NCBI GenBank assembly: GCA_019359435.1
Contig: JAHHHI010000087.1
Location: 1 to 64,000 of the forward strand
Origin: Kaiparowitsia implicata GSE-PSE-MK54-09C
Lineage (GTDB): Bacteria; Cyanobacteriota; Cyanobacteriia; Elainellales; Elainellaceae
Reading direction: 5' to 3'
DNA length: 64,000 bases
The notes beneath the pieces were generated by a model. It was not told where the DNA came from, did not search any database, and saw only the letters and a program-made list of their open reading frames with translations. Of this stretch, positions 1 to 56,561 are shown piece after piece. The translations under genes were made by a program, and so were the position numbers. How positions within the stretch are numbered: the stretch's first letter is position 1; each line of letters opens with the position of its first letter.

Positions 1-130
1 ATCGCTTCATTGCAAACTGGATGTGAGCAGTTGACGCACAAAATGAATGGGTTCATCTGCCCACTGGTACGTCGGTTGAACTTACAATTGATCTTTTCAT
101 CTGCTTAGAGTGATAGAAGAGGGGTATCAA

Positions 131-238
131 CATCAACGAGGGTTTTGGGGCACTGCACGACGCGCAGTGCCCCAAAACCCTTTATGTCCCGTGCGCACCG
201 CGCACGGGACATAAAGGGTCTGAGCTTATTCCCAGCTC
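131..238 (-). repeat. Two-hairpin intergenic element, family A, copy 1
   Basis: Two adjacent near-perfect inverted repeats lie just downstream of ugd. One spans 140-180 (17-nt arms GGGTTTTGGGGCACTGC and complement). The other spans 181-215 (16-nt arms, 3-nt loop) and can be extended by CCC/GGG. Read on the minus strand the element starts like AGCTGGGAATAAGCTCAG and matches the copies at 32699 and 40231, although its outer ends have diverged. It lies where a terminator for the ugd operon would be expected, so it may double as one (inference). Confidence 0.85.
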
Positions 239-290
239 AGGGTTTGTTAGGACGTGATAGCAGTGGGGCGATCGCCCCACTGCACCACCG

Positions 291-11085: not shown

Positions 11086-14000
11086 ATGTTCGCCAAGTAT
11101 TTTATTCAGCGTCCGGTTCTGACGACGGTGTGCTCCATCATCATTGTGTTTCTGGGGGCGATCGCCGCTCCCAGCCTGCCAGTGGCGCAATTCCCTGACA
11201 TCAGCCCAACTCAGGTGGTGGTGACGGCCAACTACCCAGGGGCCGATGCCGAAACCGTGGAAGCCGCCGTGACGAACCTGATTGAGCAGGAGATTAACGG
11301 CGTTCAGGGGATGCGCTACATCAGCTCGACCAGCGGCAGCGACGGCACCAGCCAGGTAACGGTGACGTTTGAACCTACGGAAGATCCCGACTTGGCCACG
11401 GTGAATGTGCAAAGCCTTGTCTCGCGGGTAGAGCCGCGACTGCCGGAGCTGGTGACGCAAACCGGCGTGACCGTATCACAGCAGTCGAGCAACTTTTTGA
11501 TGGCGATCGCCGTGTTCTCTGAGAACAGCGAATATGACGCCACCTTCATGAGCAACTACATCGACCAGTTTATTGCCGACTCTATGCGGCGAATTCGGGG
11601 AGTGGGGTCGCTGCAAATTTTTGGCGAGCGCAAATATGCCATGCGCATCTGGCTTGACCCCAATCGGCTGGCCAGTCGAGGGCTAACCATTCAAGACGTT
11701 TCCACGGCCATTCGGGAGCAAAATATTCAGGTGGGGGCGGGGCAATTGGGGGCCCAACCATCTGACCCCGACCAAGAGTATCAGCTCAACCTGCGGGCCG
11801 AAAGCCGGCTCGCAAACGCCACCGAATTTGAAAATTTGATTGTAGCTAACGCTGAGGATGGCTCGCTGGTGCGCCTGCGTGATGTGGGGCGGGTAGAGCT
11901 GGGCGCTGAGAACTACGGCTCCTTCCTCACCTATAACGGGCGAGAGGCCACGGGAATTGGCATCACTCAGCGGGCCGGCACCAACGCCATTGAAACAGCG
12001 CAGGCCGTACGCGATGCCCTAGAAGAGCTGAAGCAGTCGTTTCCACCCGGTTTGGACTATGCGGTGGCGTTTGACTCGACCACCTTTGTGGCGCGATCGC
12101 TCCAAGACGTGATCGTTACCCTGATTACCGCCATTTTGCTGGTGGTGTTCGTGCTGTTTATCTTTCTGCAAGACTGGCGCGCTACGCTGGTGCCCGCGCT
12201 GGCGATTCCAATCTCGCTGGTGGGCGTGTTTATCTTCACCACCATCTTTGGCTTTTCCATTAACACGCTGACCCTGTTTGGATTGACCTTGGCAACCGGG
12301 GTTGTGGTCGACGACGCCATTGTGGTGGTTGAGGCGATCGCCGCCAATGTCGAAAAGGGAATGACCCCCTATCGCGCCGCAATCGAAGCGATGGAGGATT
12401 TGTCAGGAGCGGTCGTGGCGACCTCGTTGGTGCTCATGGCAGTATTCATCCCCGTCGCGCTGTTTCCGGGCACTACGGGGGCCATCTATCAGCAGTTTGC
12501 GCTGACTATTGCATTTTCTATTGTGGTGTCTACGTTCAACGCGCTCACCTTTTCGCCTGCGATGGCGGCCCTACTGCTGCGCCGCCACACCCAGCAGCCC
12601 AACTGGTTGGGGCGCATTTTCGATCGGTTTAACCGCTTTCTGGATGGGGTGCGGCAGCGCTATCAAAGTGCCCTCGATCTGCTGCTGCAGATTAAGTACT
12701 TTGTCCTGGCGGGGTTTGTCGCGGCGCTGGTGATTACCGGGTTTGTTTATCGCGCTGTGCCGACCTCCTTTTTGCCAGATGAAGATCAGGGCTACTTCAT
12801 TACCCTAGTGCAGGCCCCAGAGGGGGTATCGCTCAACTATACGAAGAACATTCTGGATCAGGCCTCAGAATTGGTGATGCAAGAGCCGGAAGTGCTGTCA
12901 AACTTTGCGGTTACGGGCTTTAGCTTTGCCGGAATTGCCCCTAATCAAGGCATTATGTTTACCCTGCTAAAACCCTGGGAAGAGCGTCGCGGTGCAGACC
13001 AAACGGTGGAGGGGATACTCGGTCGGGTGCAGGGCAAGTTCTTCGGCATTACCACTGCCCGCATTTTCTCGTTAAACCCTCCTGCAATTCAGGGTTTGGG
13101 CACCTTTGGCGGGTTTGAACTGCAGCTTCAAGATCAGCGAGGCAACCTGCCGTTGCCAGAATTTGTGGGCTATATGTATCAGCTGCTCGGGGCTGCAAAC
13201 CAGCATCCTGACCTGCAGGCAGTGTTTTCTACCTTTACGGCCAACACGCCCCAGCTGCTGGTAGAAGTGAACCGCGATCGCGCCAAGTCCTTAGATGTGG
13301 ATCTGCGCGATGTGTTCACCACGATGCAGGGTTTTCTGGGCTCAGAATATGTGAACGATTTCAACTTAGACCAGCGAACCTATCGGGTTTATGTGCAGGC
13401 GGATCAAGAGTTTCGCGCGCAGCCAGAGGATGTGAACCAGCTCTATGTGCGATCGCAGCGGGACGAAATGGTGCCCTTGGGCAATTTGGTGACGCTCACG
13501 CCGACCACCAGTGCCCAAACCATCAGTCACTACAATCTGTTTCGCTCAATTGCGGTGCAGGGGAATGCTGCACCGGGCAGCAGCTCGGGCCAAGCGATTC
13601 GAGCCATGGAGCAACTCGTCACGCAAGTGATGCCACGCACCATTGGCTATGAGTGGACGGGCACAGCCTTGGAGGAAGTAGAGTCTGGGGGACAGGCAGC
13701 GCTGTTCTTTGGCTTTGGGGTGATTATGGTATTTCTGGTGCTTGCAGCGCAGTATGAGAGCTACTTAGATCCCACGATTATTCTGCTAACGGTGCCGCTG
13801 GCAATTCTGGGAGCGTTGGGCGCAGCCTTTATTCGCGGCTATCCCAATGATGTGTATGTGCAGATCGGTCTCGTGATGCTGATTGGCCTAGCGAGCAAAA
13901 ACGCAATCCTCATTGTGGAATATGCCAACCAGCTGCGGCAAGAAGGGCTGGGCATTGTAAAGGCGGCAGTAGAAGCGGCTCAAGAGCGGTTGCGGCCCAT

Positions 14001-15490: not shown

Positions 15491-15567
15491 TCTAGAATAG
15501 GTCAGTCATGATGGTGTAGCGCAAAAGCGCAGCCCTTCCTCCACACCATCATGACCTGAATGATCTA

Positions 15568-15609
15568 AGTTCGGGATACGCTCAAACCCCCTGAACCCGA
15601 ACTGACATT
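15568..15609 (+). repeat. Short form of family A element
   Basis: AGTTCGGGATACGCTCAAAC is followed within a few bases by GAACCCGAACTGACATTG. These are the two ends of the family A element without the central hairpins. It lies in the divergent gap between the MOSC fusion gene and the peroxiredoxin gene. Confidence 0.8.
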
Positions 15610-17034: not shown

Positions 17035-17099
17035 GTCCAAGTTCGGGCCAAAAAAGCAACGGGATACCTCACGTCGTGGGGTATCCCGTTGCTTGGACG
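17035..17099. repeat. Long hairpin enclosed by a second inverted repeat
   Basis: The arms AAGCAACGGGATACCTCAC and GTGGGGTATCCCGTTGCTT (17054-17094) pair over 19 positions with one wobble and a 3-nt loop GTC. Outside them CGTCCAAG (17035) and CTTGGACG (17092) are complementary, leaving TTCGGGCCAAAA as an apparent one-sided insertion. The left flank contains AGTTCGGG, the terminal core of family A. Confidence 0.8.
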
Positions 17100-31038: not shown

Positions 31039-32688
31039 GTGAACAAAATCGGCTTTCAGCATTGGCGGGGCGATCTATTTGGGGGGCTGACGGCAGCCGT
31101 CGTGGCGCTACCGCTGGCACTCGCGTTTGGGGTGGCTTCTGGGGCAGGGGCGATCGCCGGACTGTATGGTGCGGTGATATCTGGCTTTTTTGCATCGCTG
31201 TTTGGGGGCACCCCAGCACAGGTCACAGGGCCCACCGGGCCAATGACCGTCATCATCACTACCGTCATTGGGGGGCTCATGGCGCGTCATCCCGAAACAG
31301 GGCTGGCTATGGCCTTCACCGTCGTGATGATCGGCGGTCTGGTGCAAATTGCATTTGGGCTGCTGCGCCTAGGGCAATACATCACCATGATGCCCTACAC
31401 CGTCATCTCTGGCTTTATGTCGGGGATTGGGGTCATCATCATTCTGCTGCAGATGCCGCCGCTGCTCGGCTACCAGAGTAGCGGCGGCATCTGGGGCACG
31501 CTGCACCAGATGCCCACCTACCTGCGCCAGCCTAACCTGGCAGCTGTGGGGTTAGGGCTGTTCACCCTGGGGATGGTGTCTCTGGCACCTTCCCGGCTCA
31601 ATCGAATCTTGCCAACCCCGCTCTTGGCGTTGGTCATTAGTACCGTAGTCTCAATGCTATTGGCTCCGGAGGCAGTACCGCGCATTGGCACCATTCCCAC
31701 TGGGTTGCCCACGATTAACCTGCCCACCTTTGCCCTGGCCGACTTGCGAACGATGCTGGGCTATGGCCTAATGCTGGGAGTCCTTGGCTCTATCGACTCA
31801 CTGTTAACTTCCCTGGTCGCCGACAACCTAACCCGCACGCAGCACAAGTCCGACAAAGAACTGATTGGACAGGGCATTGGCAACTGTCTGGCGGGCCTCT
31901 GCGGCGGGCTGCCCAGCGCTGGCGCTACGATGCGAACTGTCACCAATGTGCAGGCGGGTGGGCGCACCCCCCTCTCAGGCATGATTCACGCCCTCACCTT
32001 GCTGGTGATCACCCTATGGGCGGCACCATTGACTACCACAATTCCCCATGCGGTCTTGTCGGGGCTGCTGCTCAAGGTAGGGCTCGACATTATTGATTGG
32101 AGCTTTATTAAGCGCGCGCCTCGACTATCGCGCAAAGCCACGGGGCTGATGTACCTAGTGCTAGCGCTAACCGTGTTTGTAGATTTGATTACGGCGGTGC
32201 TGGTGGGTGTGTTTATTGCCAACCTGCTGACCATCAAACGACTTACTGATGTGCAGAGCGATCGCATTCGCGCCGTGAGCGACTCAGAAGCAGCGGCAGG
32301 GCTAAGCGCTGCAGAGCAATTTCTGCTGAATCAGGCCCAGGGCAACATTCTGCTGTTTCAGCTCGGGGGAGCACTGAGTTTTGGCGCCGCCAAAACCATG
32401 GCTCAGCGAATGTCGATTGTCAAAAACTATCAGGTAATGGTGCTGGATTTAAGCGACGTGCCGGTGCTTGGCGTTACCGCTGCACTGGCGATTGAAACCA
32501 TCGTAGAAGACTCCGTGCGACAGCAGCGCCATACCTTTATTGTGGTCACTCCCGGCCAACCCCGGCGGCGACTCAGCAAGCTAGACCTGGATCGGTTTGC
32601 TCGGGCTCACTTAGTCGAGAACCGGCTTCAGGCGTTGCAGCAAGCCGCAGCGCTGATCCCATCCACCCCGTCTGCCGCTAAACGTTAA
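31039..32688 (+). CDS. bicA: SulP-family anion transporter, BicA-like sodium/bicarbonate transporter
   Basis: This inner-membrane transporter has 549 residues. About 12 hydrophobic segments are followed by a cytoplasmic STAS domain (about 425-535; LFQLGGALSFGAAK, VLDLSDVPVLGVTAALAIE). Segments GDLFGGLTAAVVALPLALAF, GPTGPMTVIITTVIGGL, YVISGFMSGIGV-like PYTVISGFMSGIGVIII and KELIGQGIGNCLAGLCGGLP closely resemble cyanobacterial BicA, a low-affinity high-flux bicarbonate importer of the CO2-concentrating mechanism. The start is GTG within ATGTGA. Other SulP transporters (sulfate, molybdate) are an alternative, but similarity to BicA is strong. Confidence 0.85.
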   Translation: MNKIGFQHWRGDLFGGLTAAVVALPLALAFGVASGAGAIAGLYGAVISGFFASLFGGTPAQVTGPTGPMTVIITTVIGGLMARHPETGLAMAFTVVMIGGLVQIAFGLLRLGQYITMMPYTVISGFMSGIGVIIILLQMPPLLGYQSSGGIWGTLHQMPTYLRQPNLAAVGLGLFTLGMVSLAPSRLNRILPTPLLALVISTVVSMLLAPEAVPRIGTIPTGLPTINLPTFALADLRTMLGYGLMLGVLGSIDSLLTSLVADNLTRTQHKSDKELIGQGIGNCLAGLCGGLPSAGATMRTVTNVQAGGRTPLSGMIHALTLLVITLWAAPLTTTIPHAVLSGLLLKVGLDIIDWSFIKRAPRLSRKATGLMYLVLALTVFVDLITAVLVGVFIANLLTIKRLTDVQSDRIRAVSDSEAAAGLSAAEQFLLNQAQGNILLFQLGGALSFGAAKTMAQRMSIVKNYQVMVLDLSDVPVLGVTAALAIETIVEDSVRQQRHTFIVVTPGQPRRRLSKLDLDRFARAHLVENRLQALQQAAALIPSTPSAAKR

Positions 32689-32698
32689 CGCTAACTTT

Positions 32699-32813
32699 AG
32701 TTCGGGATAAGCTCAACCCCTTAATGTGCCGTGCGCGACGCGCACGGCACATTTATTTGGGGCATCGCGCGTCGCGCGATGCCCCAAAACCCTCTTAACC
32801 CGAACTGACGTTA
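32699..32813 (+). repeat. Two-hairpin intergenic element, family A, copy 2
   Basis: Left end AGTTCGGGATAAGCTCAA, right end TAACCCGAACTGACGTTA. Hairpin 1 (32723-32753) has arms AATGTGCCGTGCGC and complement with loop GAC. Hairpin 2 (32756-32788) has arms TTTGGGGCATCGCGCG and complement with a single central T. It fills the gap between the convergent bicA-like and rodA genes and may act as a bidirectional terminator. Confidence 0.9.
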
Positions 32814-40090: not shown

Positions 40091-40230
40091 AAACTGCGCT
40101 GGCTGCCAAGAAGCAAAAGTGTGATTTCTTGCTCGTATACATTTGGCGCATTCCTAGGATGCCAAACTTTGGAGTGCCTGTCAACCCTTTATTAACCCTA
40201 TATTAAACCTCTGGCATCTATACTTACCTG

Positions 40231-40333
40231 AGTTCGGGAGAAGCTCAAACCCTTAACGTGCGGCACATTAAGGATTTTGGGGCATCGCGCGTCGCGCGAT
40301 GCCCCAAAATCCTTTTAACCCGAACTGACATTA
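40231..40333 (+). repeat. Two-hairpin intergenic element, family A, copy 3
   Basis: Left end AGTTCGGGAGAAGCTCAAAC, right end TAACCCGAACTGACATTA. Hairpin 2 (40270-40314) is perfect over 22-nt arms (start AAGGATTTTGGGGCATCGCG). Hairpin 1 has collapsed to ACGTGCGGCACATTAA, as if its loop and inner stem were deleted. It lies between tRNA-Gly and ribH. Confidence 0.9.
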
Positions 40334-56417: not shown

Positions 56418-56480
56418 CCGTAAGCACGACACTAAAACCTTAGCCCCATCCATAGTCACTAGATCACTGTGAGTAACCTG

Positions 56481-56523
56481 AGTTCGGGATACGCTCAAAC
56501 CCTGTTAACCCAAACTGACGTTA
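56481..56523 (+). repeat. Short form of family A element
   Basis: AGTTCGGGATACGCTCAAAC, CCTG, then TTAACCCAAACTGACGTTA: both element ends without the central hairpins. Nearly identical to the copy at 15568. It lies just before a bidirectional terminator. Confidence 0.85.
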
Positions 56524-56526
56524 GAT

Positions 56527-56561
56527 AAAGTGAAACCCTTTCATCGAAAGGGTTTCACTTT
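56527..56561. terminator. Bidirectional rho-independent terminator
   Basis: A perfect 16-bp stem AAAGTGAAACCCTTTC/GAAAGGGTTTCACTTT closes a 3-nt loop ATC. T-rich sequence follows on the plus strand (TGGTTTT); the minus strand has a shorter T-containing tail (TATC). It sits between the convergent flavoprotein and PBP1A genes and can serve both. Confidence 0.8.

Follow-up and report, generated by a model that had tools for sequence, protein, structure and literature searches.

Paired stem changes in a cyanobacterial IS982-type MITE probably arise by template-switch correction of DNA

The 64,000-nucleotide stretch of DNA analysed here (the window), located on contig C94 of Kaiparowitsia implicata (genome G000, 6.72 Mb in 109 contigs), carries copies of a short repeat with two hairpins whose stems differ between copies by paired changes. 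Matching IS982 elements, the ends of the repeat and the type of its target duplications together identify it, at the level of sequence, as a MITE, that is, a non-autonomous relative of an IS982-family insertion sequence. We propose that its paired stem changes come from template-switch (quasipalindrome) correction of DNA, which we consider the probable explanation. Covarying stems usually count as the strongest argument that an RNA is functional. In this case the signal comes from selfish DNA that bears footprints of DNA copying and gives no indication of acting as an RNA.

Anatomy of the element and its copies in the window

The element is 122-124 bp long and contains two near-perfect palindromes of ~19 bp inside IS982-type inverted ends, with the consensus AACCTGAGTTCGGGATAAGCTCAAA-CCC-TTAATGTGCCGTGCGC-GAC-GCGCACGGCACATTAA-GGG-TTTTGGGGCATCGCGCG-T-CGCGCGATGCCCCAAAA-CCC-TCTTAACCCGAACTGACGTT. 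The two palindromes abut: hairpin 1 is made of the first CCC arm and the GGG arm, and hairpin 2 of the same GGG arm and the last CCC arm, the middle arm being common to both. There are two length classes, 124 bp and 48 bp, the shorter being what remains once everything between the two CCC direct repeats is removed; intermediate lengths of about 81-94 bp represent partial deletions. Complete loss of the hairpins between these direct repeats would give the 48-bp form.

The original prediction had placed three copies in the window. All three are there, with extents corrected as below, and two 48-bp hairpin-less copies had been overlooked:

129-243, minus strand: copy 1, a decayed two-hairpin MITE; hairpins still matched, ends changed
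177-219, minus strand: hairpin 1 of copy 1; 20-bp arms, perfect
139-181, minus strand: hairpin 2 of copy 1; 21-bp arms, 95% complementary
15562-15609, plus strand: 48-bp hairpin-less form, ends only
32693-32812, plus strand: copy 2, a near-intact MITE with both inverted ends present
32723-32753, plus strand: hairpin 1 of copy 2
32756-32788, plus strand: hairpin 2 of copy 2
40225-40332, plus strand: copy 3, a MITE that lacks an internal 16 bp of hairpin 1
40270-40291/40293-40314, plus strand: hairpin 2 of copy 3; 22-bp arms, perfect
56475-56522, plus strand: 48-bp hairpin-less form, ends only

The ends had been described as common to all three copies, which does not hold for copy 1: on the left, 3 letters of AGTTCGGGATAAGC mismatch; on the right, it is shortened by ~10 bp (TTAACCCGAA); and 5 of 27 end positions are changed in addition to the deletion. 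Copy 2, which has lost 4 bp between its hairpins, lies between convergent ORFs ending at 32688 and 32876, which we take, by eye from their translations, to encode a SulP-like transporter and an FtsW/RodA-like protein, respectively; the flanking TAACGCTA / TAACGCCG resemble an eroded target duplication. Copy 3 is on the 5' side of a tRNA-Gly. Folding as DNA is far more stable than for shuffled sequence (z = -12.0, -11.2 and -8.2 for copies 1, 2 and 3), and the long hairpin arms of the window copies are 95-100% complementary. Two other near-perfect hairpins in the window, at 17054-17094 and 56527-56561, are unrelated to the MITE; the latter adjoins a 48-bp form and is followed by a T-rich stretch.

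Further copies are abundant in the genome. The end motif AACSTSAGTTCGGG, allowing at most 1 mismatch, has 338 genome matches versus 11 for the reversed control pattern, and a DNA search of the genome gave 238 first-look candidates; 40 copies were scored and all were strong. Many full copies are identical across 124 bp. We put the copy number at roughly a hundred or more, the counts resting on ~0.84 Mb of K. implicata sequence plus search lists. Like a MITE, the element is short, without a transposase and multicopy. No relative of it was found in the plasmid collection searched.

Mobility, parentage and distribution

Perfect target duplications of 6-9 bp flank 36 of the 45 K. implicata copies with readable ends, and 11/15 and 11/11 such copies in two further genomes, G013 and G003, each from another genus of the same family. 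The MITE duplications are mostly 6-7 bp, and nearly all start with TA and finish with A; this reading treats the element as ACC...CGT, and since the A and T at its own termini resemble the target, the exact boundary letters are to some extent ambiguous. The 48-bp forms also have target duplications and are present in all three genera. A REP element (RAYT/IS200-IS605 linked), as the original prediction had suggested alongside a MITE, was rejected: target duplications are present, the ends are of the DDE-transposase type, and the consensus stem feet are without GTAG or CGTC.

The ends ACCTGAGTTCGGGATAAG / CTTAACCCGAACTGACGT bound an insertion sequence of Trichocoleus exactly, and IS982 elements of K. 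implicata and of G021, a member of the same genus as G003, closely. The duplications around these insertion sequences (TAGCTA, TATTTA, TAAATA, TATCATA) are of the same kind as those of the MITE. The Trichocoleus element has both MITE ends exact and the duplication TATTTA, and carries a candidate transposase ORF resembling those of G021 and of Nostocales HT-58-2. The latter two genomes each have an intact IS982 element scoring 260 bits against a cut-off of 130 (967 bp, 292 aa and TAGCTA in G021; TAAATA in HT-58-2). In K. implicata, 979-bp elements with the MITE's ends carry an IS982 transposase broken by shared stops, a piece of which scored 149 bits against the same cut-off of 130; the IS982 copies with the closest ends have 3 stops each, and one IS982 copy, on contig C7, has an unbroken 250-aa frame but more distant ends. 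The relatives at C1:382-1362, C35:19238-20218 and C97 near 12077-12781 have the same stops (2 TGA, 1 TAG), as if a transposase acting in trans had mobilised an already broken element. Between C1 and C35 the sequences are nearly the same, and neither copy is flanked by matching target duplications.

The inverted ends, the target duplications, the matching IS982 elements and the many near-identical copies thus bear out the prediction of a non-autonomous mobile element. The anatomy shows mobility; an IS982 transposase would act in trans on the ends, and the element would go into TA-rich targets with duplication of 6-7 bp.

Beyond K. implicata, the 124-bp two-hairpin element is found in G013 at 86-88% identity and in G003 at 74-77%. 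While G021 is without the two-hairpin element, at least 40 copies with 95-100% identity are present in G003, a contrast that points to a recent burst there. A same-locus search of the G003/G021 pair gave no alignable empty site, the homologous region of G021 being only ~70% identical. G003, G013 and G009 all have high-copy MITEs with IS982 ends, yet the search for an IS982 transposase found none above the family cut-off in any of them. The end motif itself occurs in many phyla, and MITE families in other cyanobacterial genomes combine these IS982 ends with interiors unrelated to this one, of 103 bp (L149-L154), 164-165 bp (L158-L162) and 205 bp (L165-L166).

Stems change in pairs

Read directly and aligned, the three window copies show every paired stem difference quoted in the original prediction. 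In hairpin 1, a G-C pair in copy 2 (GTGCCG/CGGCAC) becomes C-G in copy 1 (GTCCCG/CGGGAC); in hairpin 2, two adjacent pairs change from CATCGC/GCGATG in copies 2 and 3 to CACTGC/GCAGTG in copy 1; and AAGGG/CCCT in copy 1 stands against AAGGA/TCCTT in copy 3.

Covariation was then measured over 32 stem pairs. Distinct K. implicata haplotypes with nearly intact ends have 23 paired and 5 single changes, where ~1 paired change is expected if the arms are independent. Relatedness was handled via minimum-spanning-tree edges of at most 8 changes, and the null was random re-pairing of stem columns, 2000 times. On these recent edges the ratio of paired to single changes is 15:7 in K. implicata, 4:5 in G013 and 5:9 in G003, with random re-pairing giving 0.63, 0.20 and 0.22 paired changes, respectively (p<=0.0005 in each of the three genomes). 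The stems covary much more than chance would allow. Counts based on the consensus inflate shared events; tree-based counts and private changes point in the same direction.

These private paired changes, seen in no other sampled copy, occur in young and in decayed copies alike, and this is hard to reconcile with dispersed copies exchanging entire hairpins by gene conversion or homologous replacement. That explanation would account for the same sub-family changes being common to many copies; we regard it as extremely unlikely.

Matching of the stems weakens with age. Single mismatches affect 5/672 pairs in young copies and 50/249 in old ones. Taken together, the decayed copies show 212 broken pairs versus 327 expected, so their stems match better than by chance yet are well short of perfect, and several of them pair at chance level. 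In copy 1, 1/32 stem pairs is broken versus 10.4 expected from end divergence; such expectations are scaled by how far the ends depart from the genome consensus, and for sub-families whose ends differ this makes copies look older than they are.

Probable footprints of DNA copying

Several features of the changes bear on how they arose. Among distinct paired changes 35/66 are transversions, a share no lower than among single changes (55/147). The excess is marginal, with p=0.04 when distinct events are counted and 0.31 for singletons, and we claim only that transversions are not depleted among paired changes. Single mismatches of the G.T and A.C types are about equally common (84:78). The exact reverse complement of the commonest loop ranks second in 5 of the 6 loops in the three genomes, and in the sixth (AAA/TTT, G003) it ties for second. 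In three copies a triple change runs across the shared middle arm (CCC/GGG/CCC to GCC/GGC/GCC), and another is found in G003 (AGC/GCT/AGC); a folded RNA pairs such an arm with one partner at a time. In the copy at L098:12701, each arm of hairpin 2 has gained one base.

If an RNA were under selection, transversions should be rare and the intermediates should tolerate G.U on one strand. The equal G.T and A.C mismatches, the many transversions, the loop inversions, the triple changes and the still-matched copy 1 therefore fit template-switch correction better than RNA selection. The claim that structure is kept while sequence drifts stands, and the evidence favours arm-to-arm copying of DNA over the RNA selection it might suggest.

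Two other copies have unusual stems. At L129:2125-2248 (G013, nearly intact ends), four adjacent hairpin 1 pairs are replaced at once in both arms, and at L147:8218-8297 (G003) the perfect palindrome continues into the flanks (GGACAGTTTTTCTGAAACCC.../...GGGTTTCAGAAAAACTGTCC), a stem that might have been extended by a template switch.

Gene context

Gene context was counted in regions L066-L105 plus the window, with genes taken as plain ORF calls. In K. implicata, 21 copies lie in convergent intergenic regions versus 7.2 expected by length (p=8e-7), and 2 in divergent ones versus 11.0 expected. Tandem gene pairs show no orientation bias (9 vs 8), and neither of the two other genomes has a significant convergent excess. 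Since a terminator signature is absent at copy 2, the simplest reading of the convergent preference is tolerated insertion away from promoters.

This distribution, together with the very stable folds, is what could be cited for a structured RNA or a mobile (bidirectional) transcription terminator with compensatory RNA evolution. We consider this very unlikely. The lack of bias at tandem pairs and of a significant excess in the other genomes does not favour it, nor do the freely inverted loops and the equal mismatch types. An Rfam scan of the window found two tRNAs only, with no match to the element above the gathering score. At copy 2 no terminator-like site was found, that is, no GC-rich hairpin followed by a T tract, and the intrinsic terminator proposed for the repeat was rejected.

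Discussion

We propose the following mechanism. After a base change in one arm, replication across the extruded hairpin would sometimes use the other arm as template; the outcome would be either a return to the old base or a complementary change in the opposite arm, and a switch that runs through the loop could invert the loop. Judging by the footprints, paired changes, loop inversions and changes along the middle arm would then need no functional RNA. Mismatches grow with age and maintenance is incomplete, so that correction is either slow or works only on almost perfect arms.

The rise of mismatches with age and the chance-level decayed copies also leave room for selection within the mobile lineage, which may add to the matching of stems. 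Selection on the mobile element as the whole explanation would mean that imperfect hairpins make a copy less mobile or more damaging to its host, that new copies descend only from those with matched stems, and that paired changes are ordinary two-step compensations. The nearly perfect young stems and the mismatches of old ones agree with it, as do single G-T and paired A-T states at the same pair (40/50, 79/87) in different copies. It does not predict the paired transversions, triple changes and loop inversions. Moreover, the hairpin-less 48-bp forms have target duplications in all three genera, MITEs with the same ends have unrelated interiors, and decayed copy 1 still has matched stems. We hold it to be an unlikely, if credible, account. 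Quite unlikely, in our view, is that the paired changes arise or become fixed during transposition, via a folded single-stranded or replicative IS982 intermediate; if so, the intermediate would rewrite one arm from the other, new copies being born perfect and residents decaying.

As template-switch correction, with one arm copied onto the other by replication, is the most likely source of the paired changes, they are no proof of a working RNA here, a caution for covariation-based discovery of non-coding RNAs. The many copies in each of three genera also provide a natural data set in which to measure bacterial template-switch correction.

The element has counterparts among known mobile repeats. 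MITECca01 of Cardinium is an IS982-derived MITE of about 240 bp that retains pieces of its parent (PMC9769881); both are non-autonomous, with IS982-family ends, many copies and the parental insertion sequence (in our case a putative one) in the genome. MITECca01 is described there with neither hairpins nor paired changes, whereas our element has two internal near-perfect palindromes. Nezha (Zhou et al. 2008, as cited in PMC10969869 and PMC3733652) is likewise a cyanobacterial MITE. REP/GTAG and CGTC palindromes (PMC3733652) are likewise short, intergenic, palindromic and of high copy number, but our element, unlike them, has DDE-type inverted ends and target duplications. For the changes themselves, the closest likeness is to the template-switching footprints reported in RNA genes by Monttinen and Loytynoja 2022 (PMC8794818), where loops are inverted, stems gain insertions and several stem pairs change together, as they do here. 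Those cases are rRNA genes under RNA selection, in which loop inversions are rare; the present element is mobile DNA in many copies, shows no trace of constraint on an RNA and often has its loops inverted.
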